DNA of 23,355 nucleotides, from the IMG/VR virus record IMGVR_UViG_3300031227_010065, positions 1-23,355 of that record; one strand, given 5' to 3'. Origin of the DNA: a virus. Under the pieces are notes generated by a model. That model did not search any database, was not told the DNA's origin, and saw only the letters and a program-made list of their open reading frames with translations. Made by a program: the position numbers and the translations under genes. Below, piece by piece: positions 1 to 21,278 of this stretch (position 1 is the stretch's first letter; each line of letters opens with the position of its first letter).

Positions 1-1357
1 CGGCGGCTTGTCCAAGGAACGAGGCTGCCTCATTGTCATCCTCGGTGCAAGCCAGATAATACGCCCGCTTTGCCTGTATCGGACCGGCGACTCCAACAGT
101 CTCCCATCCGGTTGCTACGAGGGTGTCGGCCCTCTGCAATCTGTCTATCCGCCCGGAACCAAACAGAGCGTCCGTGGGCGGAGTACGCCCTTCGAACGTG
201 TGCACGGTAGTCTTCTGGCCGCAGGACACCAGCCGGTTGGCGATCAACATTACCAGCCTGCATCGCTCGGAATCATCATAGCGTGGTAATAGGAACCTGA
301 CGGTTTCTTCAGCACACCGATCAACGACGTCGCCCCAGCGTTCACGGAACACCCCTTCGCCCTTTGTCGTTTCTGTTTGAGCCCACGCAGCAGTGCGCGC
401 AGATGACTTCCGCACCCCGTTGTCGATGTGCGTCACGACACAACCCGGAACATACCAGACTTCCCAGCCATGCAGCATCGCACGGAAACAGAAATCGGTG
501 TCCTCGTTCCCGAAGACGTATGCCGTATCAAAGCCCCGCAGTTCCTCATACACGGAACGACGAAGCGCAAACACCGCGCCCGTCACGGCCGGGACCAGTT
601 CGTAATCGCCCGCATCCACAGCAGATAGTTCAGCACGCTTGTAGCGATGAATCCCACAGGAACCCTTCGGGAACTCCAACCCTACGTGCTGGATCTTTCC
701 ATCCGGGTAGAGCAGTTTGGCTCCCGCGACCCCACATTGAGGCCGTAATTGCATCCAACTCATCAACGCCGTCAGCCACCCGGCATCGCACACCTCGCAA
801 TCTTGATTGAAAAGCACGTAGTGGCTCGCATCTGCACACTCGATCCCCCGGTTGACCGCAGCGGCAAAGCCCATCCGCTTGTCCAGTCTCAATACTCTGC
901 CTGGCGCGTCTTTCAGGAGGGCTCGTGTGGCATCGTTGGTGCTGCCATTGTCCACCCACACGAAGACGACGTTGCCCGCGTAGGATGTCTTTCTGAGCCC
1001 GTCGATACATCTACTTAACAGATCCGGGCAGTTATAAACAGGAACGACGACAGCGACAGAAGGCCAAGTGCCCACATTCCGGTAAGCTACGCTCCGCGCT
1101 GGAATGCGATAACCGTAGGCCAGTCCCCCGCAACGAACCTCTGTGTCACTCTGGCAACCTGTCTGATAGCCGGCATTGTCCGCAATCAGCCGTTCGGCCA
1201 AACTCGACGGAATCGGCGTGTATTGATCGGCCGGCAGCGTATAGACCCCGTGCACCTGTGTTCGCCCGGTCATGTTCAACACAGGAACCATTGCCTCGGT
1301 TGCCGTTGGCTGCTTTGCCTTGCGCATCCTACTACGCCTTCGAATCGCGTTTACCAT
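1..1357 (-). CDS. GT2 family glycosyltransferase with N-terminal phage module (3' end cut by window)
   Basis: The frame is open from an ATG at 1357 to the window edge (452 codons, no stop), so the C-terminus is missing. Residues ~24-66 hold the module shared with neighbouring genes (VPVLNMTGRTQVHG, then an A-x2-L helix). A GT-A glycosyltransferase domain follows: VVVPVYN at ~103-109, VDNGST at ~135-140, the DXD-like NQDCEV at ~184-189, GAKLLYPDGKIQHVGL at ~212, and further on GNEDTDFCFR with the acidic catalytic-base pair typical of rhamnosyl-type GT2 enzymes. It should transfer a sugar from a nucleotide donor; donor and acceptor are unknown. The 1357 ATG overlaps the SDR stop as ATGA. ATGs at 1327 and 1291 are alternatives, and 1291 begins exactly at the shared module. 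The enzyme family is secure; the start is not. Confidence 0.88.
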   Translation of the reverse strand, partial: MVNAIRRRSRMRKAKQPTATEAMVPVLNMTGRTQVHGVYTLPADQYTPIPSSLAERLIADNAGYQTGCQSDTEVRCGGLAYGYRIPARSVAYRNVGTWPSVAVVVPVYNCPDLLSRCIDGLRKTSYAGNVVFVWVDNGSTNDATRALLKDAPGRVLRLDKRMGFAAAVNRGIECADASHYVLFNQDCEVCDAGWLTALMSWMQLRPQCGVAGAKLLYPDGKIQHVGLEFPKGSCGIHRYKRAELSAVDAGDYELVPAVTGAVFALRRSVYEELRGFDTAYVFGNEDTDFCFRAMLHGWEVWYVPGCVVTHIDNGVRKSSARTAAWAQTETTKGEGVFRERWGDVVDRCAEETVRFLLPRYDDSERCRLVMLIANRLVSCGQKTTVHTFEGRTPPTDALFGSGRIDRLQRADTLVATGWETVGVAGPIQAKRAYYLACTEDDNEAASFLGQAA

Positions 1358-2337
1358 CAGTCTCGATCGACCTCCGTAATCTGCCAGCCGACCATTTCTT
1401 TGATCGTGTCCTCGATCTTAAATCGCGGTTCCCAGTCGATTGCAATGCGGAGTTTCGAGGCATCGCCGATAAGCGTGGGGACATCGGACGGCCGCATCTT
1501 GTCCGCGTCACGATTGATCTTGGCTTCTGGGATCGAAGCGCACTCTGATGCAATCGTCACGATTCGGCTGATCGGGCAACCCTTGCCACTACAGATGTTA
1601 AACACATCGCCGTTCTTGATAACGCCCTCGTTATGCGCCTCCACGAGAAGTCGGTAGGCACGAACGGTGTCCCTGACATCTGTATAATCCCGAACCGCTC
1701 CCGTGTTGCCAAGGGAATACTGCTCTCGCTTCCCGAGCACTATTTCCGCGGTCTGACGCGCAATTGCCGCTTCGACGAAAGCCAACCCACGACCCACGCC
1801 CGTATGATTAAACGCTCGCGTCCGCACAACACTCATGCCGAACGACTGCGCATACTGATAACCCAACAGATCCGCCGCGATTTTCGAGACGCCATAGGGC
1901 GACCTCGGTCGAAGCGGGTTGGATTCGGTAATCGGGATCTCCGCCTCGTGCACCAGCCCGTATTCCTCGCTGGAACCGCACACGTGCACAACGCAGTCGG
2001 GCACGTGCCGCTTCGCCATCTCCAACACGTTCAGTGTGCCGTTCAGGTTAGTACGTAGTGTCGCTTCCGGCTCGTGCCAACTGGCCGGGACAAACGACTG
2101 AGCCGCCAGATTGAAGATCGCATCCGGTTGCGACTCTAGGATCGTCGCCGATACACTGAGCACGTCCGTCACATCGCCCGGGATGCAATGGACGCCCTTG
2201 CGCTTCAGTCGATCGACAACTGCATCGTTCGACCGCACCCGCGTTAGCGCGCAGACCTGATAATCGCCGGAGTTCAGTAGTTCGTCAATGAGGTATTGCC
2301 CTACAAACCCGGTCGCTCCCGTTACAAGAACCCGCAT
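1357..2337 (-). CDS. NAD(P)-dependent nucleotide-sugar dehydratase/reductase (GMD/RMD-like SDR)
   Basis: This 326-residue extended short-chain dehydrogenase has the Rossmann loop TGATGFVG at 6-13, NLAAQSFV at ~76-83, GSSEEYG at ~121-127, the catalytic Y148-x3-K152 (YGVSK) and RAFNHTG at 174-180. GDP-mannose 4,6-dehydratases usually read T-S-E-x-Y-G at the active site. The S-S-E-E-Y-G here, together with RDYTDVRD, looks more like GDP-4-keto-6-deoxymannose reductases (RMD), so reductase is slightly favoured over dehydratase. The ATG directly abuts the TAG stop of the GT4 gene, and the stop overlaps the GT2 start, giving one translationally coupled glycosylation operon. The likely role is making or finishing a GDP-6-deoxy sugar for the flanking glycosyltransferases. 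The substrate could be a hexose or a heptose. Confidence 0.9.
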   Translation of the reverse strand: MRVLVTGATGFVGQYLIDELLNSGDYQVCALTRVRSNDAVVDRLKRKGVHCIPGDVTDVLSVSATILESQPDAIFNLAAQSFVPASWHEPEATLRTNLNGTLNVLEMAKRHVPDCVVHVCGSSEEYGLVHEAEIPITESNPLRPRSPYGVSKIAADLLGYQYAQSFGMSVVRTRAFNHTGVGRGLAFVEAAIARQTAEIVLGKREQYSLGNTGAVRDYTDVRDTVRAYRLLVEAHNEGVIKNGDVFNICSGKGCPISRIVTIASECASIPEAKINRDADKMRPSDVPTLIGDASKLRIAIDWEPRFKIEDTIKEMVGWQITEVDRD

Positions 2338-3648
2338 CTATGCCCCTCCCGCATCATTCATCACGACCCGCAACAGCGACTCGCACGTTCGTTTGACTGT
2401 CCACTGCTCGCGCACCCACTTCGCCGCGGCAAGCCCAGTCTTTCGCGCGCTCTCCCTCTTCTCGTAAACCTGCCGATAGCGGGCAACCAGTTCATCGAAG
2501 TTGGGCTCCCACCAGTTTCCGACATCGCCCCAGTCTGGGGGGTAGCCGCCTTTGGAAACGTGCGGCACTTTCGTTTCGAAGCACGACACCGGATAGTTGT
2601 AGCGCGGGTCGCAATACTCGCTCATCCCGGAGTTGTTGCTCACGATCACCGGCAGGCCCGTGGACATTGCCTGCAACGGTGTCAGTCCGAACCCCTCGCC
2701 GCGCGAGGGGAACACGAACGCGTCGGCGTCGTGCATCCACTGCACCATCTGCGCGGGCGTCGATTCCTCGGCCACAAATCGAATCCGATCATCGGACGGC
2801 AGGCGTTTGTTCCAGTCCCAGAACCCGCCCGAAGTCTGTTCACCCCGTGTCTTCAACACGAATCGCACGTCCGGATACTGCGCACGTGGAAACGCGGCTA
2901 CAAATGCCCTTGCCGCTCCCACGGGGTTCTTGCGATGCGTGAGTCCGGCCGCCATCAGGAACGTGAAATATGGCCGATACTCCGTTCGCTTGAGTTCCGG
3001 AACCGGCCACTTGTCGGGATCTACGCCCAGACACACGACATCGATTGGGGTAGTAACCCCCTGCCTCTCGAACGCCTCTTTGTTCTGGCGACACGGCACG
3101 ATTATCCGCCGGCACTTGTTCATCTCGATCGACCATGCCGCCGGGGGCGTGGTAGTCTCGAACATCGTCAGTCCGATCCCGCGCAGGAACGGATGATGGT
3201 GGATGTCCCGAGGCCAGGTCATGTTGATTCCGTAGCAGCACTCGGGCTGTTGCGGTCGGCGCAGGCATTCGACGATCGCTTTCGGCACGAACGCTCTCTC
3301 GCTCCATTGGTCGAGAGGAATCCCGCCGAACTGCGGCTTGCCGGGGTCGTAGTCTCGCGTGTAGATCGAGAGATTGACGCCGGATTCGATCAGAGTCCGC
3401 GCGATCTCCTGCGCAACACTGCCGTAGCCGTCACAGTAGTGGAACGGACTGCTCCACCCAAGAAATATGTGTCCGCCGTCTTCCAGGAACAGAAAGTCCT
3501 CGGCCAGATCGTTGCTGTCGATGCGGTAGTCGGGATTTGTCGCCAACTGCCGCGCCAACGCTCGCGGGACTTCCGTCCATTCGCCCGGCCGCAGGTAGTG
3601 ATGCCCAAACACCTGCGGGACACGAGTAAGGTTCAAAACCGGTATCAT
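2338..3648 (-). CDS. GT4 family glycosyltransferase with N-terminal phage module
   Basis: This is a 436-residue protein. Residues 1-45 (MIPVLNLTRVPQVFG, LRPGE, then an A-x2-L helix) form the same module as at the start of the GT2 enzyme and in the small head-region proteins. The rest is a GT-B glycosyltransferase. It has an N-terminal Rossmann half with FLGWSSPFHYCDGYG at ~62-76, a linker VVCLGVDPDKW at ~204-214, and a C-terminal half with AAGLTHRKNP at ~233-242. The nucleotide-sugar motif SRGEGFGLTPLQAMSTGLPV (~315-334) is an E-x7-E-like site in which the second Glu appears to be Gln. ATG at 3648 follows GGGAG. It lies immediately upstream of the SDR and 90 nt after the capsid gene, so it probably acts on a phage product. 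Acceptor unknown. Confidence 0.9.
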   Translation of the reverse strand: MIPVLNLTRVPQVFGHHYLRPGEWTEVPRALARQLATNPDYRIDSNDLAEDFLFLEDGGHIFLGWSSPFHYCDGYGSVAQEIARTLIESGVNLSIYTRDYDPGKPQFGGIPLDQWSERAFVPKAIVECLRRPQQPECCYGINMTWPRDIHHHPFLRGIGLTMFETTTPPAAWSIEMNKCRRIIVPCRQNKEAFERQGVTTPIDVVCLGVDPDKWPVPELKRTEYRPYFTFLMAAGLTHRKNPVGAARAFVAAFPRAQYPDVRFVLKTRGEQTSGGFWDWNKRLPSDDRIRFVAEESTPAQMVQWMHDADAFVFPSRGEGFGLTPLQAMSTGLPVIVSNNSGMSEYCDPRYNYPVSCFETKVPHVSKGGYPPDWGDVGNWWEPNFDELVARYRQVYEKRESARKTGLAAAKWVREQWTVKRTCESLLRVVMNDAGGA

Positions 3649-3698
3649 GTGCTCCCGTATGCCTCATGCAATCGGCGGAGGAACGACTCGGATGCCAT
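3645..3698 (-). CDS. possible 17-codon leader peptide
   Basis: A short ORF starts at an ATG directly after GGCGGAGGG and ends with a TGA that overlaps the ATG of the GT4 gene (ACATGATA). It would encode MASESFLRRLHEAYGST. Its start region lies within the hairpin at 3674-3707, so its translation could open the stem and couple to the glycosyltransferase. Spacing between the purine-rich stretch and the ATG is very short, so it may not be translated at all. There is no homology argument for it. Confidence 0.25.
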   Translation of the reverse strand: MASESFLRRLHEAYGST

Positions 3699-3707
3699 CC
3701 CTCCGCC
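3674..3707 (-). promoter_or_regulatory. inverted repeat between capsid and GT4 genes
   Basis: GGCGGAGG at 3674-3681 and CCTCCGCC at 3700-3707 form a perfect 8-bp stem with an 18-nt loop in the only gap (3649-3738) of the left operon. No U-run follows on the minus strand, so it is not a standard intrinsic terminator. It could be an mRNA-processing or stability hairpin, or a partial attenuator that lowers glycosyltransferase expression relative to capsid. Confidence 0.5.
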
Positions 3708-3738
3708 AGTGTTAGTTATCGTAGTTGATCCGTCTGTT

Positions 3739-5448
3739 CTACGGATCTGAGCCGGCCACACCAGGCTGCATCGTGACGGTCGCGAAATACTTACCGTCAA
3801 GCATCTGATGCGCGACCTCGCTCTGGAGGGATTGCTCGACATCCTGTGTGCCGGGGTCGATCCAGATCGGAGTCACGAACAGACCGAGATACGGCGCAAT
3901 GACGTAGCCCGTCTGCGGCCACTGCTTACCCTTGGCGCCGACCAGCAAGGTGTTTGTCTGGAGGCTGTCCCACCAGCCGACCTTGACCAGCCGCTCGCCA
4001 GTGCTCAGAGAACCGGCGATGTCGATTCCCTCGGCGACTCGCCCCTGGCCATCGCCCTTGTAGTCGCCGGCGGCCTGAGCCAGCCAAACGATGCGATCGA
4101 TCGAATCCGGGTCACCGATGATCCACACCGTGTCCGCGAACCTCGACTTGTAGATCAGGTTGCGGGCTTTCTTGATGTGGGTGATGATCTGCTTCTGCCA
4201 CTGCTCGCCGTCGTAGTTCCCGGTAGCGGGCGGCAGAGTGCCGTAGTTGACGTTGCCGGCGGTCGCGCCGCTGACCATCTCCGCGAGAATGTTGTAGTTC
4301 CATTCCCGCGCAACCTGGTCGGCGCACGCGGAGATCATCGTGCCGGTGCCGTCGATGCCGAAGTCGGAGTGCAGGTGCCGCATCACCTCGACCGACAGGT
4401 CGTAACCGAGCTTTTTGATGAGGCAGGTGACATTGGTCGAAGTCAAGCTGCCCTTGAGCCGCTTGATCTCTTCCTTCTCACCCGGGTCGTTGGCATACGA
4501 GCCAGTGAAGTTCGCGACGGCCGACATATCGGCGTCGTCCTCGTCGGTGATCTTCCAGTGGTAGACGCGGCCGGTCGACTGCTTCAACGGCTGAAGCGTT
4601 CCGAGTTGGGTCGCGATCAACTGCGGGAAGATGTCGACCATCAGCGGCATCACATACGGGATCGCCGCCGCGACGTCGCCGGTCGTGGTGGCGCCGGTGG
4701 GAATCGCCTGTCCCCTCGCGCCCTGCCGCAGCACGGACATCCGGTCGCGGCTGAACTGCTCGGCATCCTCGACTCTCTTCATCATGCCGTTGCGCATCAT
4801 CAGCCACGCATCGGCCAGTTCCGGCTTCTCCTTGACGAAGTTCTGGAGCATGATCCGCATGCACAGACGCGTGTCGGAGAAGTCGGGAAGAGCGCCGGGC
4901 ACCCACGAGCTATTCCCCTCGTGCAGTATTCCGCGTTCGGTCGCCGACTGGATCAATTCCTCGACGGCCGCTTCGTAACTCTGCGGGGCGTCCACCGAAG
5001 TACCGTCGTCCTTGTACTCCGGGGTATACATCCCCTTGCTCGCAAGGCGAGCGTGACTATCGAGGAACGGCTGTATCGACTGCCGCAGCGCCGGCATCAC
5101 CGCCTCGATCCCCTCGTCCGTAGCGCACATGTTCTGCAACATCGTCCGAGCGGAGTCACTGAACTGCTCGGGCAGTTCCTTGTCCGTTACCATCTGCGCG
5201 ATCCGTGCGCTCACAGCGGCGTTGCGCTTCTGAACCAGTTCACGCGACGCGTCTCTGTCGATGATCGCCTGCGCCTGCGCCGTTACTCCACGGGCCTGAT
5301 CGAGCACTGCCCGATCATCGTCCGTCAGTCCCGCGGGCGCCGCCACGGGCGCCGCCTGCGGCAATACCTGCGGTGGCGTCGCCGTTCCATCCGGGCCGCC
5401 GCCATCGACATCGGCGTTCTGCTTGTTTGTGACCTCATCGGGGTCCAT
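3739..5448 (-). CDS. nested in-frame scaffold-capsid product from an internal start
   Basis: Inside the protease-capsid frame, the ATG at 5448 (Met 378 of the long product) is preceded by AAGGAGA with 6-7 nt spacing, as good a ribosome site as any in the window. The product would be 569 residues: it begins MDPDEVTNKQ, has an acidic and Ala/Pro-rich ~180-residue N-terminal region, then the capsid fold. The site sits exactly where protease homology ends. This mirrors the nested lambda C/Nu3 arrangement and would allow many capsid copies per protease copy. Whether the N-terminal region is a scaffold that is later cleaved off is inferred. Confidence 0.6.
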   Translation of the reverse strand: MDPDEVTNKQNADVDGGGPDGTATPPQVLPQAAPVAAPAGLTDDDRAVLDQARGVTAQAQAIIDRDASRELVQKRNAAVSARIAQMVTDKELPEQFSDSARTMLQNMCATDEGIEAVMPALRQSIQPFLDSHARLASKGMYTPEYKDDGTSVDAPQSYEAAVEELIQSATERGILHEGNSSWVPGALPDFSDTRLCMRIMLQNFVKEKPELADAWLMMRNGMMKRVEDAEQFSRDRMSVLRQGARGQAIPTGATTTGDVAAAIPYVMPLMVDIFPQLIATQLGTLQPLKQSTGRVYHWKITDEDDADMSAVANFTGSYANDPGEKEEIKRLKGSLTSTNVTCLIKKLGYDLSVEVMRHLHSDFGIDGTGTMISACADQVAREWNYNILAEMVSGATAGNVNYGTLPPATGNYDGEQWQKQIITHIKKARNLIYKSRFADTVWIIGDPDSIDRIVWLAQAAGDYKGDGQGRVAEGIDIAGSLSTGERLVKVGWWDSLQTNTLLVGAKGKQWPQTGYVIAPYLGLFVTPIWIDPGTQDVEQSLQSEVAHQMLDGKYFATVTMQPGVAGSDP

Positions 5449-6579
5449 TGATGTCTCCTTTCGCGGCTCCGGATGTTTGTTGGCCTGGAGCCGGGCGTAT
5501 TCAACGGCGGAGCCTGGACTCGCACCGTTCAGAACAACATCGATAGAGATGAGGCGGAACCCATCCGCCTGCACAATATCGACTTTCTGTCCCTGGAACT
5601 CTCCCGGCTTCGTTGTGGCGATTACCAGCGTGCTCATGTCGAACCCGATACCGGCAATCAGCGTTGCGGCCAAGTCGTTGCCCTCTCGCGTCTTGGTCGT
5701 GACAGCTTCAAATGCGACTTGGTTGCCTCGCATTTCCAGCTTCGTGAACTTCTGGGATACTTCATGCGGATCAGGCGGACGGGGAAAGCCCTGTCCGTCG
5801 GCCTTGTGACCTGATGCGCCGATCACCCTGCCCATGGGAAGGCTGATTTGCGCCAGATCAACCTGTTGGCACCACAGTTCAGCGGGGTACACCTGTCCTT
5901 GCGTATTGACAACATCACCGACCGTGGCCACGCCGCCAAAGCGCACAGTCCCATCTTTCTGTGCTTTGCCTTGATCGAGTAGCCGTATCGGAGCACGGAC
6001 CTGCTGCATCAAAAAAGGCGGCTTTTCGCCGCCTTGTTCGATCACCGCCCCGACCGGGGTTTCTTGTAGTTCAATGTCTGGCGGCGTATGTTCCGCGTTC
6101 GCCAACCCGCCGATCGCCTGCTGAACGATCGTGATGATCTGCTTGATCTCGACCTCGCGGACATCGGAGAACGTGAACGCATCCCCATCGCGAGTCCAAT
6201 CGGCCTGATAGTAGCGAGATTCCCACTTGCCGGACTGGTTCCGGATCTCGCTTGAGATAACAACCGACTCCGGCATGGTGAATACGGTCCACTTGTATTC
6301 GCCCGGAATCGAGTCGTTCGCTTGAATCGCCCGATTCAGACGGCGGATCAACTTCTCATACGCATCGTCCGTGCTTTCGCCCGAGATCACCGCCCCTTGC
6401 AGAAGTGCCGACATGCTCTCTTCCAGGGCGGATTCGTCGATCTTGTCGTCCTGCGCCAGTTTTTCGAGCCCAACCATAGTCGTGCGGATAGGTTCGACCA
6501 GTTCGGACGGCAGTATCTCCCGTGTTTGCCCTAGAAACGAATCAAGCCCGGATATCCGGGCTTTGAGCAGGTCAATCAT
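3739..6579 (-). CDS. prohead protease fused to major capsid protein
   Basis: This is a single 946-residue frame. The chosen ATG follows AGGAGG by 5 nt; an in-frame GTG 36 nt upstream lacks such a site. Residues ~1-180 form an uncharacterised N-terminal region. Residues ~195-365 resemble phage prohead serine proteases: GRVIGASGHKADG with candidate catalytic His ~258, GIGFDMS with candidate Ser ~316, and VVLNGASPGSA. Residues ~380-480 are rich in Ala, Pro and Gln with a helical, scaffold- or delta-like look. The remainder (~560-946) resembles an HK97-fold capsid subunit: a long N-arm, VMPLMVDIFPQLIATQLG, many acidic and aromatic strands, and DTVWIIGDPDSIDRI. No frameshift is visible. An internal RBS and ATG at 5448 probably supplies most of the capsid protein. 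Protease and capsid are usually separate genes, so the fusion is notable. Confidence 0.8.
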   Translation of the reverse strand: MIDLLKARISGLDSFLGQTREILPSELVEPIRTTMVGLEKLAQDDKIDESALEESMSALLQGAVISGESTDDAYEKLIRRLNRAIQANDSIPGEYKWTVFTMPESVVISSEIRNQSGKWESRYYQADWTRDGDAFTFSDVREVEIKQIITIVQQAIGGLANAEHTPPDIELQETPVGAVIEQGGEKPPFLMQQVRAPIRLLDQGKAQKDGTVRFGGVATVGDVVNTQGQVYPAELWCQQVDLAQISLPMGRVIGASGHKADGQGFPRPPDPHEVSQKFTKLEMRGNQVAFEAVTTKTREGNDLAATLIAGIGFDMSTLVIATTKPGEFQGQKVDIVQADGFRLISIDVVLNGASPGSAVEYARLQANKHPEPRKETSMDPDEVTNKQNADVDGGGPDGTATPPQVLPQAAPVAAPAGLTDDDRAVLDQARGVTAQAQAIIDRDASRELVQKRNAAVSARIAQMVTDKELPEQFSDSARTMLQNMCATDEGIEAVMPALRQSIQPFLDSHARLASKGMYTPEYKDDGTSVDAPQSYEAAVEELIQSATERGILHEGNSSWVPGALPDFSDTRLCMRIMLQNFVKEKPELADAWLMMRNGMMKRVEDAEQFSRDRMSVLRQGARGQAIPTGATTTGDVAAAIPYVMPLMVDIFPQLIATQLGTLQPLKQSTGRVYHWKITDEDDADMSAVANFTGSYANDPGEKEEIKRLKGSLTSTNVTCLIKKLGYDLSVEVMRHLHSDFGIDGTGTMISACADQVAREWNYNILAEMVSGATAGNVNYGTLPPATGNYDGEQWQKQIITHIKKARNLIYKSRFADTVWIIGDPDSIDRIVWLAQAAGDYKGDGQGRVAEGIDIAGSLSTGERLVKVGWWDSLQTNTLLVGAKGKQWPQTGYVIAPYLGLFVTPIWIDPGTQDVEQSLQSEVAHQMLDGKYFATVTMQPGVAGSDP

Positions 6580-6595
6580 ATCGGCCTCCTGTCGA

Positions 6596-7036
6596 TCAGA
6601 GTGCAGCTCCTTCACCTGTCATCGCGCGCACTTCTTCTGCGGCCGCCATATCCGTTGCGACCTTGTTGACCGCCGCCACATGCGTGTCCGCCAGGTGCAG
6701 AACCAGACCTTCGGCCTGTTCGAATACCTCCTGGCAGAACGGGCATTGATATTGCTTCGTCGGTTGCGAAGAGTCGTATTGTACCGGTGCCGGTACGCGC
6801 CCTTCGAGCATGTCCAGTCCGGGAGTTTCGCTCGCAATTTCAAGCACGCCCGTTTGCACCAGCCGTTCGCCCAGTGTGCCCTTGGCGCAGTCAATCACGT
6901 CCGACGCGCCGGGCCGCAGCATCCCCCGCCCGACGCTTTGGGGAACGCGGGTTACGTTTTGAACCATCTTCAAGACCGGTTCGTGCTCGGGTTTTTCTTC
7001 CTTTTGCTTTCGTTTCTTGTCGGCTAGTCCCACCAT
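6596..7036 (-). CDS. module plus C2H2 zinc-finger small protein
   Basis: The protein has 146 residues, with ATG at 7036 after AGGAGGT. A basic leader (KKRKQKEEK) is followed at ~25-69 by the recurrent module (NVTRVPQSVGRGMLRPG, then L-x2-R-L and GVLEIA). At 96-119 there is a classical C2H2 finger: C98-x2-C101-x12-H114-x4-H119 with F105 and L111. It lies 16 nt upstream of the protease-capsid start and downstream of the portal, a position often held by minor head or accessory proteins. It may be a virion component or a DNA-binding factor. The finger predicts zinc binding but not its partner. It is a probable paralogue of the next upstream gene. Confidence 0.75.
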   Translation of the reverse strand: MVGLADKKRKQKEEKPEHEPVLKMVQNVTRVPQSVGRGMLRPGASDVIDCAKGTLGERLVQTGVLEIASETPGLDMLEGRVPAPVQYDSSQPTKQYQCPFCQEVFEQAEGLVLHLADTHVAAVNKVATDMAAAEEVRAMTGEGAAL

Positions 7037-7397
7037 TTGACCTCCTGTAGTTGCCGTGCGCGTGCATGATGTGTCCGTGCCGTGCGAGCTTCGTGGGGAA
7101 CGCCCTAGCAACCCCTTGCACAAGACACTTCTGACAGAAAAACCCCGGCAGATCCGGGATGTTCTCGACACGCGCGTTCGAACACATCTCGTCTACCAGG
7201 GTTCGTTCGTATTCCAGTATTTCAATCCGGCCCAGATCACGAAGCCGTTGGGCCATCCCCCAGCTAATCCAGCCAGTCCCGCCCGGCTCCAGAACAGTCT
7301 CGCCGACCACTTCGATCAGATGATATGTGGATCTCGCAAGCACCCTGCGTTCCGGGGGCGAAGCGGGGTGTGCCCGGCGAAAGACCCTGCTAACCAC
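6891..7397 (-). CDS. second module plus C2H2-like finger protein
   Basis: The frame starts at a GTG (7397) preceded by GGAGG at 11 nt and overlaps the upstream stop by 8 nt, giving 168 residues. Residues ~24-62 show the recurrent module in diverged form (VVGETVLEPGG, then A-x-R-L and GRIEIL). Residues 86-114 (FFCQKC, F100, L104, H107, H112, H114) look like a C2H2-type finger with a longer C-to-H spacing. The last ~48 residues are Arg/Lys-rich and overlap the next gene out of frame by 146 nt, so the true C-terminus or start could differ. No function can be assigned beyond a likely role in or near the head. The module and finger order matches its downstream neighbour, suggesting duplication. 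Confidence 0.6.
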   Translation of the reverse strand: MVSRVFRRAHPASPPERRVLARSTYHLIEVVGETVLEPGGTGWISWGMAQRLRDLGRIEILEYERTLVDEMCSNARVENIPDLPGFFCQKCLVQGVARAFPTKLARHGHIMHAHGNYRRSNGGTSRQETKAKGRKTRARTGLEDGSKRNPRSPKRRAGDAAARRVGRD

Positions 7398-7866
7398 GCG
7401 GCTTGTGGCCTCCGCGCGGGCGACCGGGCTTTCGTCCCTTTCTGGATTTGGGCTTCTTCTCTGGCTTGGGCGGCTCGACTTCAGCATCTTCCGATTCGGA
7501 GTCGTCCGACTCGGCACCGATCACCGACTCGATGTGCGCATCGATCTGCTCATCGGCTTCCGCGTCCGGGTCATAGCGAGTAACCAGCGGCACGCCTCTC
7601 GGAACGGGCGGCGGCGCGGACTCTTCCGCGGCGTCAGCAGCCTCGGGCTCGTCGTAATCTGTCTCCGTGGGCACCTCGTCGATGATCGTGATTTGTGCAA
7701 CCGGCACCGGCAATATCTCCACGACCCCGCGTGCCGCAAGGAACGTCGCGCATCCATTCGGCATCATTGCGACTTCGTGCGTCTGGTAGGTGTAATGCCC
7801 CACGACCTGCGGCCCTTTCAGGCAGCGGATTTGCACAAGTTCTTCCTGACCCGGCTCGTCAACCAT
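7390..7866 (-). CDS. module protein with acidic middle and basic tail
   Basis: The protein has 158 residues; ATG at 7866 is preceded by GAGGAGG with 8 nt spacing. Residues ~8-52 contain the recurrent module (QIRCLKGPQVVGHYTY, then A-x2-L-A and GVVEILPVP). Residues ~65-128 are strongly acidic and Pro/Ala-rich, and the last ~28 residues are Lys/Arg/Gly-rich (KSRKGRKPGRPRGG). The basic tail could bind nucleic acid or an acidic capsid surface. It follows the portal gene by 13 nt. It lacks the Cys/His finger of the two downstream relatives. Function unknown; a minor head or head-completion protein is the best guess from position. Confidence 0.7.
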   Translation of the reverse strand: MVDEPGQEELVQIRCLKGPQVVGHYTYQTHEVAMMPNGCATFLAARGVVEILPVPVAQITIIDEVPTETDYDEPEAADAAEESAPPPVPRGVPLVTRYDPDAEADEQIDAHIESVIGAESDDSESEDAEVEPPKPEKKPKSRKGRKPGRPRGGHKPRG

Positions 7867-7879
7867 CTGGTTTTCCTCC

Positions 7880-9373
7880 TCAGACCTTCTCTCGGGCGTC
7901 TTTATTGCCCGCGCCCGGCAATTGGATTCGATCGTCCTTCCCGTCCCCGTTCTTGCCGGGTTCCTCCGGCGGTTGCTCTTCGCTGATCGTAATCCCGGAG
8001 ATCAGCGTATTCTTGGACGCATCGCTCATCCTTGTGAACTCGCGCAACACGACTTCGAGGTGCGGTCGCATCTCGGGGTAGCGCTCAAGAAGCGTGTCCA
8101 TTGTCTTTGCAAGCGCCATCTGCGTCTGAGCGCCCCGAAGCGCGTCGGTCGTGTTGATGTCAGCCATCCGAATCACGTAGCGAACGGAGTTGGGGTCTAT
8201 GCCCTTGAGGACAAGCTGACGATCGAAAAGTGTCGATAGCCCTTCCTTGAGGATCTGCTGACAGAACATCAACGTGCAGGCATAATGCTTGTCTTCCGCC
8301 TGCCCGCCGCCCTCGGACAGCTTCGGGATAGATCCCTCGAACGGGAAATACCGCTTCGGGATGCTGGTCGCGGTTATCAGACGGTCGATGAAATGCTCGA
8401 TATCCTTGATGTTCTGGAGTTGCGCGTTTTCGGGGTCGATCATTTCCACGCCGCCCCGCCCGGAACCATCATCCGGAATGTAGTAATCCGTGTTGATGCT
8501 CGTCGGGTCGTTCACCAGGTCAACGGTCGAGAGGTCCTGGTTAAACACAGGGCGCTTTGCCATCGCGTCCTTATACATGTTGATCGCGGACAACTGCTGA
8601 GGGACATTCCAGTCGGATCTCGTGGGCACCTTGTGGATTAGCTTTGCAAACGCGCGCACTATCCGCGCCGCGGCGGTCGAGTCCTCCGCCATATTGATTC
8701 GCTTCCAGTTGTGCCGCGCACAGCCCAGAAGCGGAGTCCCGATATACCCGTCGAGTTCCCCGAAAGGAAAGTGCAATACCTCCCATTCAGCGAACTGGAT
8801 CTGGTTTTTCGTGTCAGCCGGCGTGTTCTCGGGCCGTTGGAAGTAGCCGGGGAGCTTGTTTCCCTTGTCGTCCGTCATGGGCCACAGCGTATGCTCGGGC
8901 AACTCTTTCAAGCCCACGATATCCATCGTCTTGGAGTCGATGAGCACTTCGCGGAACTCGTTTCCCCATTTGACGAACCGCCGGACTATTTGCCATGCCT
9001 CTCCGCGCAGCTTCAGACGCCGCACCAGATCGTCGATCTCGCGTTGGGCGGTCTTGAGTGCGCGCTTGCCGGCATCACCTTCCGCCTGAACTGTCACCTC
9101 AAACGCATCGAGGGTGGGATCTTCCATCCCCACAGCACGATTAGCGATCGTGTTGAACGCGAACGACACAATCTCGTCCGCCCTATCCATCCGATGCAAA
9201 TCCTTGTGTATTTGAGTCCGCGCATACGACACCTGGAACTGCCTGGCGAGGATGGTTTCCAGCGTTGCCGCCGTTGCGCCCCGCCCGACCTCGGTGGTCT
9301 GTACGGGGTTTCTCCCCAGCAGTGCCGCGACTGCCGCCCGCGTTCTTGTTCGCGCCTGGCTAACTAGACTCAT
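7880..9373 (-). CDS. phage portal protein
   Basis: This 497-residue protein lies directly after the terminase/sigma block, the classical portal position. Portal-like features include the early segment DRADEIVSFAFNTIANRAV, a DUF-like hydrophobic core (EVLHFPFGELDGYIGTPLLG at ~210-230), a helical stem region, and SIPKRYFPFEG followed by QAEDKHYACTLMFCQQI at ~370-405, typical of the portal crown/wing region. The portal is the dodecameric vertex through which DNA is packaged by TerL. ATG at 9373 follows GGCGGGG; an in-frame GTG lies 3 nt upstream. It overlaps the sigma-factor stop by 14 nt. The C-terminus is charged (DDRIQLPGAG). Subfamily assignment is not possible by eye. Confidence 0.85.
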   Translation of the reverse strand: MSLVSQARTRTRAAVAALLGRNPVQTTEVGRGATAATLETILARQFQVSYARTQIHKDLHRMDRADEIVSFAFNTIANRAVGMEDPTLDAFEVTVQAEGDAGKRALKTAQREIDDLVRRLKLRGEAWQIVRRFVKWGNEFREVLIDSKTMDIVGLKELPEHTLWPMTDDKGNKLPGYFQRPENTPADTKNQIQFAEWEVLHFPFGELDGYIGTPLLGCARHNWKRINMAEDSTAAARIVRAFAKLIHKVPTRSDWNVPQQLSAINMYKDAMAKRPVFNQDLSTVDLVNDPTSINTDYYIPDDGSGRGGVEMIDPENAQLQNIKDIEHFIDRLITATSIPKRYFPFEGSIPKLSEGGGQAEDKHYACTLMFCQQILKEGLSTLFDRQLVLKGIDPNSVRYVIRMADINTTDALRGAQTQMALAKTMDTLLERYPEMRPHLEVVLREFTRMSDASKNTLISGITISEEQPPEEPGKNGDGKDDRIQLPGAGNKDAREKV

Positions 9374-10004
9374 CACACCCCGCCATACGTGCCATCTTTT
9401 CTATGATCTGCTCATGCCGTCGGCCTGCCCACGCTCCCGTGTAATTGTGCATCCGCCCGATGTCAACAAACCGCATCCTGCGCCGATAGCGCTGCTCGAT
9501 CAACTCCGCCTCGTCTTCCGGCAACTTTCCAATCAGGTCGCTCACCATAACGCGGTCAAGGCAAGCGTCCACATCGAATGTTTCGCTGAGTTTGTCGTCT
9601 AACTGTAGCGCGTCGAAGGACACAAGTTCGGGCGGATCGACGGCACCGCGCTGACACCGCCTGTAGTTGCTGCCCCCGTGGGTTCCGTGGTCCCGGATGT
9701 AATTCTTGATTGTGCCGTCAATCCGCGTGCATGCGTAGGTCGCGAAAGACGATTTGCCTCGGCATGGATCGTAGAGATCGACCGCGCTCACAAGCGCAGC
9801 CCACGCCGCCCCTGTGATGTCTCCCTCCTCCAACCCAACCGCCCTTACCACATCGCTCAGTTTTCGGGACCGGCTATATACAAGACCCTTGTAGCTCATA
9901 ATGAGCAGGTCGCGTGATTCCGGCGTGCGTAGTTGCCAATACCGCATCCACAGCGCCCGTTGGCCGGCATTTGTCGAGACTTTCTCCCAATCGATATCAG
10001 GCAT
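9360..10004 (-). CDS. phage-encoded sigma-70 family RNA polymerase sigma factor
   Basis: The protein has 214 residues. Residues ~30-106 match sigma region 2: RDLLIMSYKGLVYSRSRKL, a DI-x2-AAWAALVSAVDLYDP helix, then RGKSSFATYACTRIDGTI and NYIRD, the core-binding and -10-melting segment of FliA/SigD-like factors. After a linker, residues ~148-205 look like region 4: VSDLIGKLPEDEAELIEQRY followed by a candidate helix-turn-helix (FVDIGRMHNYTGAWAGRRHEQI). Region 3 is short or missing. It would redirect host RNA polymerase to phage promoters. The ATG overlaps the terL stop (TGATG), with GGAGG ~11 nt upstream. Position between terL and portal is unusual for a sigma factor. A catalytically unrelated head-assembly role is unlikely given both regions. 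Confidence 0.82.
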   Translation of the reverse strand: MPDIDWEKVSTNAGQRALWMRYWQLRTPESRDLLIMSYKGLVYSRSRKLSDVVRAVGLEEGDITGAAWAALVSAVDLYDPCRGKSSFATYACTRIDGTIKNYIRDHGTHGGSNYRRCQRGAVDPPELVSFDALQLDDKLSETFDVDACLDRVMVSDLIGKLPEDEAELIEQRYRRRMRFVDIGRMHNYTGAWAGRRHEQIIEKMARMAGCDESS

Positions 10005-12736: not shown

Positions 12737-13503
12737 TACTCCAACGCCCCTTCTCTCCGCGCCAGCGCTATCCCTTCGATCTTCCCCGGCGCAAAGCAAC
12801 ACGGGTGCGCCGATACGTGCCCTGATTCCTCGTGCGGCGGGCCACCCTCCAGGAAAACACAGTCGGAAACGCCGGTCAACAACCAATCGGCAGTGAAACC
12901 CATGCCCTCGCCGTGCTTGTCCCTTACAGCATCCGCGAGCCGCCGCGTGCGCTGTAACACGAGGTGCATCCAGGCGAGCACCTGTCCGTCGCAATCCTGA
13001 AACGTGAGCGGCCGTTGCGGGTAGTAGTTACTAATGCCAATGATCCCGTACCTATAGTCTACAAACACCCGACACTCTACGGGATAATCGTCAGCTCGCG
13101 GAGTATCCATCCACGGCCTCACGCAAAGCCGCGTCGTAGTAGTGTTGCCCGCGGTACAATCCATTACGCGCGAATCATCACAGGTAAGCTCATAGTAGTC
13201 AGAATCCCACTCCCAGCCATTCCCCGCTGCTTCCTTCGCCATCGAGTTCGAGCAGCACTCCCATCTCGCGCTGAACCTGTGTCCCGCTTTGAGTCGTTTG
13301 AGCTTTTCGGACTCATACCACCTGAACGCCGCATCCAACTGACGCGTAGGACCGGAACCCGGGCCATTCAACGCTATGTATATCTGCTCGATCGGAAACT
13401 CGGGCGAGAACATCGCGGACACATGCGGAATACCCGCATTCTTGCATAACTCCAACCACGGCCCCAGCGGAACCATCATCTGTCGTTTCTCAAGATCGGT
13501 CAT
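12733..13503 (-). CDS. conserved phage protein, possibly ATP-grasp-like, unknown function
   Basis: The protein has 256 residues. The pattern WLELCKNAGIPHVSAMFS near the start, then W-x-CCS, a DDSRVMD segment, VRPWMDTP, PVECRVFVDYRYGIIGISNY and YPQRPL is one I associate with an uncharacterised family recurring in phage genomes. The RPW...E-RVFV...G-I-S-YY layout is reminiscent of CDC123/ATP-grasp-type folds, but I do not see a clear nucleotide-binding signature. ATG overlaps the nucleotidyltransferase stop as ATGA, so the two genes are coupled. It is the last gene before the strong promoter. Confidence 0.75.
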   Translation of the reverse strand: MTDLEKRQMMVPLGPWLELCKNAGIPHVSAMFSPEFPIEQIYIALNGPGSGPTRQLDAAFRWYESEKLKRLKAGHRFSARWECCSNSMAKEAAGNGWEWDSDYYELTCDDSRVMDCTAGNTTTTRLCVRPWMDTPRADDYPVECRVFVDYRYGIIGISNYYPQRPLTFQDCDGQVLAWMHLVLQRTRRLADAVRDKHGEGMGFTADWLLTGVSDCVFLEGGPPHEESGHVSAHPCCFAPGKIEGIALARREGALEY

Positions 13504-14285
13504 GGAAACCTCCGTTTGGCCTCTTCGTAAGCCTCTACTGTCCCGATGTCAATCATCGATTCGTTTCTGTCTATCGGCAGGCACCAGATATCCCGCTTGT
13601 CTTGCAGCATCAGGCCGATTGTATCCGTGATCTGGCGCTCGCCGCCTGCCCCGGGCGCGGTGCGTTCGATATAATCGAAAACGGATGGGTCAAACACATA
13701 GCGTCCGGCGATCGCAAAGTCGCTCGGGGCGTTCGCGGGATCTGGCTTCTCGACAATCGCTTCGGCCCGAAACACCGGGAACGTCTCCAAGTTCGGCTTC
13801 ACGACGCCATAGCGAAACAGTTCCTCGCGCGGCTTCTTTTCGACCATCACCATGCCGAACACACTTGCGGACACATCTATCATCCGGCGCAACGGCACGT
13901 AGTCCCGACCCGTGTCGATTATCGTGTCACCCAGCGCCACGGCAAACGGCTCTACCTTGCCAACATACTCCTTCGCGCGGTAGATAGCGCCCGCCAGCCC
14001 GTTCTGCTTCCGCTGAAGAATATAGCCAACCGTCATTCCAAGCACCGACCTGCCGAAGCGCTCGCGGAACCCGTCTATCTTGTCGCGCGATAGCACCAAC
14101 AGGACATCATGAATCCCAGACGCGGCAAGCTCTTCCATCACGTGTTCGATAACCGGCTTTCCGCCCAACGGCAGCATTTCCTTGGCCTTGCCCGGTTCCA
14201 ACAGCGATGCCAACCTGGTTCCACGCCCGGCCGCGGGAACCACGGCAGTTGTGACTCTATGGCGATGCTTATACCTCATCGCCAT
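13500..14285 (-). CDS. sugar-1-phosphate nucleotidyltransferase (GalU/HddC-like)
   Basis: This enzyme of ~261 residues has the GT-A pyrophosphorylase signature: AVVPAAGRGTRL followed by GKAKEMLPLGGKPVIEHV (~15-48). The Lys of KEMLP is the phosphate-binding residue. Further features are QNGLAGAI at ~94-101, the metal site ALGDT at ~117-121, GVV (~160), VEKPDP (~178) and GRYVF...PGAGGERQITDTI (~194-223), which is close to bacterial GalU. It would join a sugar-1-phosphate to a nucleotide. GalU makes UDP-glucose, but pairing with a heptose-type kinase and a GDP-sugar-type SDR leaves a GDP- or other NDP-heptose/hexose possible. The start is ATG 14285 or 14279 after GAGAGGG. It overlaps the upstream gene by 17 nt. 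Confidence 0.9.
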   Translation of the reverse strand: MAMRYKHRHRVTTAVVPAAGRGTRLASLLEPGKAKEMLPLGGKPVIEHVMEELAASGIHDVLLVLSRDKIDGFRERFGRSVLGMTVGYILQRKQNGLAGAIYRAKEYVGKVEPFAVALGDTIIDTGRDYVPLRRMIDVSASVFGMVMVEKKPREELFRYGVVKPNLETFPVFRAEAIVEKPDPANAPSDFAIAGRYVFDPSVFDYIERTAPGAGGERQITDTIGLMLQDKRDIWCLPIDRNESMIDIGTVEAYEEAKRRFP

Positions 14286-15018
14286 TCGCCCTCTCGCACT
14301 CAGCTTTGTGCTCGCACTCATCGCAGTCCGAGAACGGGTATTCCTTGCACCGCTCGATCAGTGTGCTGATATGCTCATTTCTTATCGGCACATGCCCGAT
14401 CGGAATCGCATTGGACTCCAGTTTCCGGATCGCCTTCGCGACGGGCGCCAGGCAACCATCGTTGGGCACTTTGGGCATCGGCAGACCGTAGTTCTCCCAC
14501 ACCTGCTTGATCTCATCGAACTTCGCCGCGGGTAGAGCCTTTTGCCCTTCGGAAACACGCAGGTCCGAAACCGCGCGCCGAAGCTCTTTCGTGTTCCAGC
14601 CCTCTTCCTCTGCCTGCGTCAGCAACGCATCCTGCTGATCGGGTTCGCACGCCGCCACTTCCATGTGATGACTGAAACTGAGGCTTTCCCTGCGTCTCTT
14701 CATCGGGATCGCGGCGCACACCCAGGCGTAGTTCCGTAGCGTCTGATACTCAAACTCAGTGCTGTCGCCATCGAACGCCTGGGAATACTTCTCTCCATAC
14801 GTCTCCTCACCCCAGTTCAGCCAATCACCAAGCACAAACCCGATCGCGCGGTTCATCTCACGCATGTAGGTCCCGACCTGCTCCCATTCATCGAAATCGA
14901 GTTTCTTCTTGACCACCAACCCGGTCCGCCGGCACGAAATCTTGCTCCATGCGGTACCTGTGCTCGCGGGCACATGGGTCTGCGCCTCTTCGTTTTCAAC
15001 TATCGCATTCTCAGACAT
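14269..15018 (-). CDS. conserved phage protein with LSFSHH motif, possible regulator
   Basis: The protein has 249 residues; ATG at 15018 follows GGAGGCGAGG. Residues ~33-170 contain LDFDEWEQVGTYMREMNRAI, then FVLGDWLNWGEETYG, YQTLRNYAWVC, SLSFSHHMEVA, DALLTQAEEEGW and ELRRAV. I recall this series of motifs from uncharacterised phage and actinobacterial genes resembling ParB-associated or DNA-binding proteins; the LSFSHH-x-EVA plus W-x2-[KR]-ELR pattern is typical. The C-terminal end holds a Cys cluster (DCDECEHKAEC) that could bind metal. No catalytic site is evident. It overlaps the nucleotidyltransferase start, but functional linkage is not implied. Confidence 0.7.
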   Translation of the reverse strand: MSENAIVENEEAQTHVPASTGTAWSKISCRRTGLVVKKKLDFDEWEQVGTYMREMNRAIGFVLGDWLNWGEETYGEKYSQAFDGDSTEFEYQTLRNYAWVCAAIPMKRRRESLSFSHHMEVAACEPDQQDALLTQAEEEGWNTKELRRAVSDLRVSEGQKALPAAKFDEIKQVWENYGLPMPKVPNDGCLAPVAKAIRKLESNAIPIGHVPIRNEHISTLIERCKEYPFSDCDECEHKAECERANGDEV

Positions 15019-15209: not shown

Positions 15210-15785
15210 TCACTGCATCGCCAGCATTGGCGTAGTCTCGGGTAGTTGTCCCACTTGATCTCCCCAGGCTTCCCAGCCGGCGACCCGGTGCCGCGCAAAC
15301 AGTTCGATCCGCGGCACATCGCCATACATCTTCTCGATTCGCTCCCGCACGACCGCCGGCTTCTCCGAGTGTTGCGATCGCGGATACATCACAAGCGACG
15401 GCACCATCTTGTTCTCGGGCGGCATCGATCCCTTGACCCCGAGCAGGCAGAGTTCGGCGTTGCTCGAAGTGTAGTAGCCAGGCCCGAATATCGGCAGTCC
15501 GTTCGGCCGCGTCTTCACCCAATGGAACGCAACGGTGCAGTAACGAAACCCCCACGCTTCGATCACGCGTATGCCGACATCCAGCCGCGGGCACGTCGTC
15601 CAGAGGAAAAGCGCACAGTTCTCGTCCGCGATCGACTGCACAAACTCTCCCATCCCGACGATCTCTTTATCGCGCATCAGCTTATAGTGCGCGCATGCCC
15701 CGCCGCCGAACCGAGTCCGTTTCCCGGACATCCGGCGGTTGTTATACCACCACGGCGGATCAGCGTAGATGATCTTGTGCTTCAT
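15210..15785 (-). CDS. MT-A70 family adenine methyltransferase
   Basis: This 191-residue enzyme has DPPW (9-12) inside IIYADPPWWYNN, the S-adenosylmethionine/adenine catalytic motif, then LFLWTTCPRLD, VIEAWGFRY, SSNAELCLLGVKG and HSEKPAVVRERIEKMYG followed by RIELFAR and GWEAWG. This is the full MT-A70 set seen in phage N6-adenine DNA methyltransferases. It would methylate adenine in phage DNA, probably protecting it from host restriction. ATG at 15785 overlaps the upstream gene by 26 nt. Substrate sequence and whether it acts on DNA or RNA are not visible. Confidence 0.9.
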   Translation of the reverse strand: MKHKIIYADPPWWYNNRRMSGKRTRFGGGACAHYKLMRDKEIVGMGEFVQSIADENCALFLWTTCPRLDVGIRVIEAWGFRYCTVAFHWVKTRPNGLPIFGPGYYTSSNAELCLLGVKGSMPPENKMVPSLVMYPRSQHSEKPAVVRERIEKMYGDVPRIELFARHRVAGWEAWGDQVGQLPETTPMLAMQ

Positions 15786-16191: not shown

Positions 16192-16345
16192 CGGGTGTCT
16201 CCTCTGCCTCTTTCAGTGATCGTGAGTCCGGCGGCTTCCCGTTAGGCTCGTAGTGCGGGCAGTCCACATTACAGGTGTTAAATGCCGGTTGGCACGGGTA
16301 TGTATCGTCCGCATAGTGCGTGCAGCTCCGCTCACCCCAGCTCAT
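16184..16345 (-). CDS. 53-residue Cys-rich protein
   Basis: Starting at ATG 16345 within the end of the DUF5131 gene, it reads MSWGERSCTHYADDTYPCQP followed by NTCNVDCPHYEPNG. Four Cys and two His within 29 residues suggest a small zinc or metal-binding knuckle. The C-terminus is charged and probably disordered. Function unknown. The in-frame upstream Met codons lie deep inside the previous gene and are not used here. Confidence 0.5.
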   Translation of the reverse strand: MSWGERSCTHYADDTYPCQPAFNTCNVDCPHYEPNGKPPDSRSLKEAEETPDE

Positions 16346-20190: not shown

Positions 20191-20196
20191 AAGCAC

Positions 20197-20300: not shown

Positions 20301-21278
20301 CTATCGTCTTCCGTTGAATATGATCTTCGACCCGTCGCATCCGATCCGTATCGGCAACTCCGTAAGCTCCGCCAGTTCCTCCCGCACCGCCGCCCGTCTC
20401 TCCGGCGGGGCGACCACAAGAAAGAATCCGCCACCGCCCGCCCCTGTTATCTTGCCGCCAACGGCGCCCACACACATTGCACGATCATACATCTCGTCTA
20501 TCTGCGGGTTTGTGATCCCGCTTGCAAGCGTCTTCTTGTGCAACCACCCCGTCGCCAGGATGTGACCCAGATCCTCAACCCTGCCGGTCGCGAGCTCCCA
20601 GGCTGCCGCACGAGCCTGTTGCCGGATCGCCTTGAGTGCCGACATGTTCCCGCCGACCATCGCTCTCTGTTCGCCAAGTATGGACGCCGACTGACGGGTT
20701 ACGCCAGTATAGAACAGCATCAGGCTATCGCATAGATTCTGTTGTGCCGCTTGGTTCAGCTTGATGGGCTCAGTCTCTACCGTGCCGTTTCCGATAAACG
20801 TGAACGATCTCAACCCGCCGTAGGCCGCGATATACTGATCCTGTTTACCGATCGGCTTCCCGAGGATTTCTATCTCGATCTCACACGCTTCCCGCGCAAC
20901 CGCCTCGGTCGATACACTTATCCCCCTGTGTGCGTATAGGGCGTTCAGGAGCCCGACCGTGAGTGCGCTCGACGACCCCAGTCCGGAGCCCTCCGACGAG
21001 ATGTCGGCCAGCGTTACAATCTCGATCCCCTTGTCCACGCCAACCAATCGAAGAGCCTCGCGCACGAGATCATGCTGGATCTCGTCCACCTCATCGACAA
21101 TCTCGGTCTTCGTGTAGCTCACCCGGATCTTGTCGTCAAACCGTTCCTTGACAACCACGAAGACATACTTGTCGATCGCCGTCGAGACAACCATCCCGTG
21201 TGTTTCTCGGTAGAACTCCTTGAAATCCGTCCCGCCGCCGGCGAAACTGATCCGCAATGGGGTCTGAACTATAATCAC
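20301..21278 (-). CDS. hddA: GHMP-family sugar kinase (heptose-7-phosphate kinase-like)
   Basis: This 325-residue kinase has the GHMP layout: N-terminal TPLRISFAGGGTDF, ATP-binding motif 2 SEGSGLGSSSAL (95-106), the catalytic-region KQDQY at ~145-149, and motif 3 GGKITGAGGGGFF at ~274-286. TPLRISFAGGGTD and the KPIGKQDQYIAAYGG stretch are characteristic of D-glycero-D-manno-heptose 7-phosphate kinases (HddA) and related fucose/GDP-sugar kinases. It would phosphorylate the anomeric carbon of a sugar, feeding a nucleotidyltransferase. Start is GTG after AGAGG (8 nt). It lies 10 nt after the small membrane gene. Exact sugar unproven; gene symbol is by similarity. Confidence 0.9.
   Translation of the reverse strand: MIIVQTPLRISFAGGGTDFKEFYRETHGMVVSTAIDKYVFVVVKERFDDKIRVSYTKTEIVDEVDEIQHDLVREALRLVGVDKGIEIVTLADISSEGSGLGSSSALTVGLLNALYAHRGISVSTEAVAREACEIEIEILGKPIGKQDQYIAAYGGLRSFTFIGNGTVETEPIKLNQAAQQNLCDSLMLFYTGVTRQSASILGEQRAMVGGNMSALKAIRQQARAAAWELATGRVEDLGHILATGWLHKKTLASGITNPQIDEMYDRAMCVGAVGGKITGAGGGGFFLVVAPPERRAAVREELAELTELPIRIGCDGSKIIFNGRR

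Follow-up and report, generated by a model that had tools for sequence, protein, structure and literature searches.

A recurring module in two glycosyltransferases and three small head-region proteins of a virus, with a possible role in capsid docking

In phage lambda, the small head protein gpFI has been described as bound to the gpE lattice of the prohead (in the available part of PMC4856287), and in mycobacteriophages the glycosylation of capsid and tail proteins has been reported (in the available parts of PMC12363180 and PMC11256854). These partial texts, together with part of PMC4493119, provided the background on gpFI and phage glycosylation used here. The subject of this study was a module of about 45 residues, carried in single copy by five proteins of one head operon, two of which are glycosyltransferases. 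The operon is found in a stretch of 23,355 bases of an uncultured phage, from the IMG/VR virus record IMGVR_UViG_3300031227_010065, which was read on one strand and is called the window throughout. To our knowledge, the way in which glycosyltransferases choose virion proteins is not settled. If the explanation developed below is true, a docking domain common to head proteins and glycosyltransferases would explain the choice of virion targets, and the module would be a portable means of bringing an enzyme to the capsid.

The minus strand, which also carries the nucleotidyltransferase and kinase genes described below, is transcribed from the terminase large subunit through a sigma-factor-like gene and the portal to three small proteins of 158, 168 and 146 residues (p158, p168, and p146), followed by an open reading frame (ORF) of 958 residues for protease and capsid, a family 4 glycosyltransferase (GT4), a sugar-nucleotide dehydratase and a family 2 glycosyltransferase (GT2). 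Both enzymes scored well above the Pfam gathering thresholds: GT2 (2..1357; Glycos_transf_2, E-value 2.8e-17) reached 63.6 bits with PF00535 (cut-off 23.3), and GT4 (2338..3648, directly downstream of the capsid gene; PF13692, 9.2e-15; phrog_2170, 1.8e-28) reached 55.6 bits with PF13692 (cut-off 27). GT2 is truncated at the window end, and its full length of 504 residues was read in L004 (8292-9806), a part of a 52-kb record of the same lineage. The module was located at residues 23-66 of GT2 (1160..1291), following a basic N-terminal tail that is itself conserved in the related lineage L021, and at residues 1-45 of GT4 (3514..3648). The copies in the small proteins occupy residues ~21-69 of p146 (6830..6976), ~19-62 of p168 (7212..7343) and ~8-52 of p158 (7711..7845).

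The ten pairs formed by these five segments were compared by Smith-Waterman alignment, with 3000 shuffles each. GT2 and GT4 were the closest pair in the window (score 76, 0/3000 shuffles as good), followed by GT4-p146 (57, 0/3000), GT4-p158 (41, 1/3000), p146-p168 (35, 18/3000), and GT2-p158 (32, 52/3000). The remaining five pairs were weaker, with 123 to 2059 of the shuffles as good. Similar first halves were common to the modules of GT4, GT2, and p146. Additionally, leave-one-out hidden Markov models, each built from the other four copies, were run on the 265 stop-to-stop ORFs of at least 50 residues in the window. In all five runs, the copy left out ranked above every other untrained ORF, with E-values of 9e-10 (GT4), 0.0042 (GT2), 0.0029 (p146), 0.0037 (p158) and 0.10 (p168). 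The sequence-only reading, which had proposed the module in these five proteins at these positions, was thereby confirmed on this point. No sixth copy was found in the 52-kb record when it was searched with the module profile.

Profiles made exclusively from glycosyltransferase copies were a stricter test of the small proteins. With three such copies (from L021 and L027), GT4 (7e-16) and GT2 (1e-9) were recovered, and p146 (0.51) ranked below a spurious ORF at 0.27; with five copies, p146 was matched at 0.0013 and p158 at 1.1, and p168 remained unmatched. The comparison of the glycosyltransferase profile with the segments by hhalign gave 96.7% for GT4-GT2, 49% for p146, 5.0% for p158 and 0.6% for p168, the best of 130 decoy segments reaching 4.6%. 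When seven glycosyltransferase copies were used, the values were 42.7% (p146), 3.0% (p158) and 0.7% (p168). Profile-profile comparison, which had been proposed as the check, was clear for the two enzymes and p146, barely placed p158 over the best decoy, and left p168 below it. Shuffles and hhalign agreed with the earlier statement that the two enzymes and the 146-residue copy are the closest and the other two weaker. As judged by sequence, the GT4, GT2 and p146 copies can be regarded as secure; those of p158 and p168, the latter being the weakest, rest on weaker sequence links and on the predicted fold, which was modelled for p168.

The structure of the GT4 copy was predicted with AlphaFold2 from an alignment of eight rows, with a mean predicted local distance difference test score (pLDDT) of 83.5 and values of 92-94 over the first 40 residues. 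The model consisted of strands at residues 2-6, 12-14, 17-19 and 24-27, a helix at 29-36 and a last strand at 41-43. The p168 copy was modelled from an alignment of p168, p158 and p146 only, without the glycosyltransferase sequences, and its mean pLDDT was also 83.5; its strands lay at 7-12, 18-20, 23-25 and 30-34, its helix at 35-43 and its last strand at 47-52. The two models agreed in the order of their elements (four strands, one helix, one strand) and in their near-equal spacing, as expected from the common small beta fold that the sequence-only reading had anticipated. These concordant predictions are the main support for the p168 copy, and bear less directly on that of p158.

Four lineages carrying this arrangement were found in IMG/VR: that of the window, L021, L044 and L027. 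The records of the window lineage, including the 52-kb one that holds L004, were counted once because they were identical over the proteins compared. Identity to the window was 43% for the terminase, 53% for the portal and 40% for the capsid of L021, 55% for the portal and 47% for the capsid of L044, and 46% for the capsid segment of L027. GT4 carries the module in all four lineages, and GT2 carries it in the three whose sequence reaches this gene (window, L021 and L044; the L027 contig ends inside GT4). In L044, the start of the GT2 copy lies four residues further on, and a stop codon (8032-8034) closes the ORF some 20 bases short of the end of the contig, though the homology seems to continue. 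The capsid ORF lies directly upstream of GT4 in the window, L021 and L044, and a possible ORF of 101 residues intervenes in L027. Furthermore, a protein of 161 residues between the portal and capsid genes of L044 (p161) carries the module and a C2H2-like motif. Its module was matched at 0.00039 among 40 ORFs by a profile that includes p168, so that this value is partly circular. It is the ortholog of p168 (0/2000 shuffles as good), related values being 18/2000 for p158 and 389/2000, that is, no likeness, for p146. L027 is uninformative on the small proteins because its contig begins within the capsid ORF.

The 37.9-kb record of L021 contained only two module copies, those of GT4 and GT2, and an HddA-like kinase gene lies between the two enzymes. 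Its GT2 homolog (18252-20687) is a protein of 811 residues with both GT2 and GT4 domains. Between the window and L021, the GT2 module was identical at 23/44 positions and the rest of the protein at 104/380; the catalytic part is a fairer comparison than the whole rest because the second half of the L021 protein includes a GT4 domain. With this comparison, the N-terminal tail and module showed 48.6% identity over 70 columns (E-value 2e-16), and the catalytic part 21.5% over 205 (2e-6). In GT4, module and rest were about equally conserved in L044 (27/45 and 246/387 identical) and in L021 (23/45 and 211/384). The module is kept throughout, yet its conservation exceeds that of the enzyme in just one of five comparisons. 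Beyond these lineages, tblastn against 50,697 phage records gave chance-level matches only, whether the query was the GT4 copy (4 records, best E-value 2), the L021 GT2 copy (9 records, best 4) or the whole p146 protein (12 records, E-values of at least 5).

The explanation that we favour, tentatively and as a serious possibility, is that a capsid-docking module recruits GT4 and GT2 for virion glycosylation, with sugars supplied by the phage and enzymes acting in sequence. The module would be a small docking domain, similar in overall shape to YqbF and the C-terminal domain of lambda gpFI, that was duplicated within the phage family into a number of head-operon proteins and added to the N-termini of the two glycosyltransferases. 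It would probably tether both enzymes to the lattice of the prohead or capsid, or to a binding partner located there, and sugars made by phage-encoded sugar-nucleotide enzymes would be transferred to a virion protein by GT4 and GT2 in succession. The module recurs, two copies share a predicted fold, both enzymes retain it in related phages, and GT4 follows the capsid gene; capsid binding, the virion as acceptor, the order of action and the identity of the sugar are what we infer. In a broader version, conceivable and more doubtful, a single family of capsid-docking domains is a targeting tag, combined in various ways with small head proteins that bear zinc fingers or basic tails and with glycosyltransferases, and would address enzymes to the growing head for virion glycosylation during assembly. 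Docking on the same virion partner and targeted glycosylation, both suggested from the sequence, are plausible, the former because the nearest solved phage folds include the gpFI C-terminal domain and GT4 lies immediately behind the capsid gene. The suggestion that a structural-gene module had been fused to the glycosyltransferases was supported as regards the shared fold and its retention across related phages, but an origin of the module from one of the operon's own structural genes was not established, because L021 has both module-headed enzymes and only about 110 bases between its portal and capsid genes.

Three genes for sugar metabolism in the window, and the HddA-like kinase gene of L021, are consistent, by sequence family, with a phage-supplied sugar. 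The first encodes an NAD-dependent sugar-nucleotide dehydratase/epimerase of the GDP-mannose 4,6-dehydratase family (1357..2337; PF16363, 1.9e-76), the second a sugar-phosphate nucleotidyltransferase (13500..14321; PF00483, 4.6e-34), and the third a GHMP kinase resembling the heptose-7-phosphate kinase HddA (20301..21278; PF00288 and PF08544; HddA model 1e-46, under its cut-off); the last two are possible suppliers of sugar nucleotides. NCBIfam models were run on the enzymes only, and the matches shown for the dehydratase/epimerase fall under the cut-offs for any single enzyme. The sugar was left unnamed because the NCBIfam matches shown lie under their cut-offs.

Several results weigh against the docking explanation. 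The module had no above-cut-off match in Pfam or PHROGs and nothing credible in PDB sequences, and none of the five segments matched Pfam at an E-value of up to 10. The sub-threshold matches were unhelpful: phrog_29929 on GT4 (0.3), PFV_capsid on residues 46-86 of p168 (0.022) and RNA_polI_A34 on the charged p158 (8.6e-5). Neither model had a PDB match at an E-value of 0.001 or below or a Z-score of at least 8, unrelated folds (GINS, ArsM-type and ribosomal L9) scored in the range of YqbF and gpFI, and for p168 a GINS-type domain outranked both. In BFVD, no match of the GT4 model reached 0.001, the best being an uncharacterised Xanthomonas phage protein at 0.0039. The profile of seven glycosyltransferase copies matched p146 at 0.0044, and p158, p168 and L044 p161 were all absent at E-values of up to 3. 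The small proteins are encoded upstream of the capsid gene and not downstream as gpFI, and in L021, where portal and capsid genes are so close, they are missing. In L027, the GT4 module (16/45 identical) is less conserved than the rest (107/184), as is, slightly, the GT2 module of L044 (18/44, rest 80/163). Finally, no Ser/Thr-rich tail was seen by eye at the capsid C-termini read here.

The fact that the copies of GT4 and GT2 resemble each other most and are retained together in 3/3 lineages covering both genes, with L021 keeping both enzymes and no small protein between portal and capsid, could also be accounted for by an assembly domain, which would bring the two enzymes and the small proteins together in a single enzyme complex and would not itself contact the capsid. 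This is unlikely in our estimation, given that such a complex offers no obvious function for copies in head-region proteins encoded beside the portal and capsid genes. Rather unlikely as well is that the module is a common and easily duplicated small phage domain (FluMu_N, DUF7210 or YqbF-like) with a different partner in each protein. The much diverged p158 and p168 copies fit such a domain, as do the 390 BFVD matches of the GT4 model at E-values of up to 10 (none at 0.001 or below), among the best 50 of which small uncharacterised phage proteins predominate, one of them named DUF7210; against it, GT4, GT2 and p146 are alike in their first halves, and the GT2 module is retained while the catalytic part diverges.

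Host surface glycans or hypermodified bases of the phage DNA might instead be the substrates of the glycosyltransferases, and the module would then dock to a DNA-processing or membrane partner. The window contains three DNA methylase genes (MT-A70, N6_N4_Mtase and C5 methylase; 15210-15785, 18464-19897 and 21512-22609), a radical S-adenosylmethionine (SAM) gene follows GT2 in L004, p146 has a zinc-finger-like end, and GT2 weakly matched the GtrB-like O-antigen-conversion family phrog_841 (0.012). Nevertheless, we consider such targets improbable, since in related phages the genes of the enzymes come immediately after the capsid gene and no base-hydroxymethylating enzyme was present among the 18 window proteins scanned with Pfam (a scan that did not take in every ORF, and no search was made for GtrA-like membrane proteins). 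A chance or compositional likeness picked by eye is very improbable for the set as a whole: the segments were preselected by the reader, five of the ten pairs had at least 123 of 3000 shuffles as good, and glycosyltransferase-only profiles miss p158 and p168, but the held-out ranks, the decoy comparison, the module-keeping orthologs and the two concordant models contradict it for GT4, GT2 and p146; it stays conceivable for p158 and p168.

As for the other features of the operon, the T4-type prohead protease and the gp23-like major capsid protein share the single ORF of 958 residues (3739..6615; phrog_207, phrog_138 and PF07068), and long ORFs of this type were also present in L021, L027 and L044. 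The T4-type portal gene lies at 7880..9376 (PF07230, 9.4e-26). The p158 protein (7390..7866) has an acidic stretch and a basic C-terminal tail after the module, and p168 (6891..7397) has a C2H2-like motif, read by eye, after its own. In p146 (6596..7036; AGGAGGT ahead of the ATG), a basic tail and the module precede a C2H2-like zinc finger, for which the Pfam matches were below their cut-offs. The idea that their zinc fingers mark p146 and p168 as paralogs was rejected, since the C-terminal parts by themselves were no more alike than expected by chance (518/2000 shuffles as good; whole proteins 51/2000). The p168 and p146 genes overlap by 146 nucleotides (6891-7036). The codon-position pattern of guanine plus cytosine fits the p146 frame within the overlap and the p168 frame upstream of the p146 ATG; hence, the last part of the p168 frame may have arisen as a by-product or may mark a site of frameshifting. 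In GT4, an E-x7-E sequence, which we take to be a motif of this family, lies at residues ~318-326, its second Glu being Gln in the window and L044 and Glu in L021. Behind GT2, L004 (9793-13142) encodes a B12-binding/radical SAM enzyme detected with Pfam and, by eye, a second ORF looking alike and a further GT2-like ORF, so that the operon continues past GT2. The window also encodes a DUF5131 protein (16332-17426; 5.5e-75). A C-terminal piece of the L006 glycosyltransferase, alike by eye, was rejected as a module copy: no module-profile match at E-values of up to 3 was obtained, hhalign gave 6.7% with the profile of the small proteins and 0.3% when all copies were used, and its score with all copies was 10.3, the best of 60 shuffles being 16.2.

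Among known systems, the nearest comparisons for the module are three small domains. The best PDB fold match of the GT4 copy was YqbF of Bacillus subtilis (2HJQ; Foldseek E-value 0.23, Z-score 6.5, root-mean-square deviation 6.1 over 54 residues), with 9-20% identity in the structural alignments; unlike GT4 and GT2, YqbF has no glycosyltransferase. For the p168 model, a GINS-type replication protein came first (Z-score 6.3) and YqbF was third by Z-score (5.4). The second domain is the C-terminal domain of lambda gpFI (PDB 2LSM; Pfam Packaging_FI, PF14000), also from a small head protein, the solved fold of which was weakly matched by the predicted small folds of the GT4 copy (Z-score 4.0, 44 aligned residues) and the p168 copy (Z-score 5.0, 50 aligned residues, Foldseek rank 2, E-value 0.30). 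These structural scores for YqbF and gpFI are below the level trusted by the search tool's own notes. The C-terminal domain is reportedly the head-binding part of gpFI, and YqbF and HI1506 have reportedly been noted as its relatives. Like GT4 here, gpFI is encoded immediately behind the capsid gene, but it carries no enzyme and no sequence similarity to the module was found. The third is FluMu_N (PF17891), a small domain of the Mu gp35/HI1506-like type, encoded directly behind the Mu-type capsid gene and with no fused enzyme. An HI1506-like gene directly follows the capsid gene in Vibrio phage ZX4290, and the same position was read by us in two prophage stretches; the records compared for gpFI, gp35 and HI1506-like genes were chosen for carrying them. 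Among the module proteins, this position is that of GT4 in the window, L021 and L044, and not of GT2, p146, p158 or p168. Membership of FluMu_N or Packaging_FI was not supported by sequence, given the absent Pfam match and, for FluMu_N, hhalign values of 0.2% and 0.3% with a three-row alignment, which also count against the docking explanation. The gpFI-type reading was favoured despite the weak fold scores because gpFI, gp35 and HI1506-like genes share the capsid-adjacent position of GT4, and by predicted fold and gene position the module is a possible relative of the gpFI/YqbF/FluMu_N group.

Regarding the enzymes, two Arthrobacter phages encode related GT4s inside the head-tail operon (KellEzio gene 28 and DanielleIgnace gene 21; 21.7% and 24.5% identity), but the alignments start past the module, at residue 66 or 67, and neither stretch yielded a credible copy when searched with the module profile. 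Since such GT4s occur in head-tail operons with no credible copy, the module looks like an added feature. A genome scan with the GT4 alignment gave two distant bacterial GT4s, aligned outside the module, and the module profile found none in the stretches examined. Among the open-access papers listed, no docking module on a phage glycosyltransferase was described in the titles or abstract openings. Virion glycosylation in mycobacteriophages (Che8, Corndog and Myrna; Freeman et al. 2023) relies on phage-encoded glycosyltransferases, as predicted here, and a shared docking module is not described in the available parts of PMC11256854 and PMC12363180. Given that phage virion glycosylation is already known from these same partial sources (PMC11256854, PMC12363180), the new part of the present locus is the shared module.

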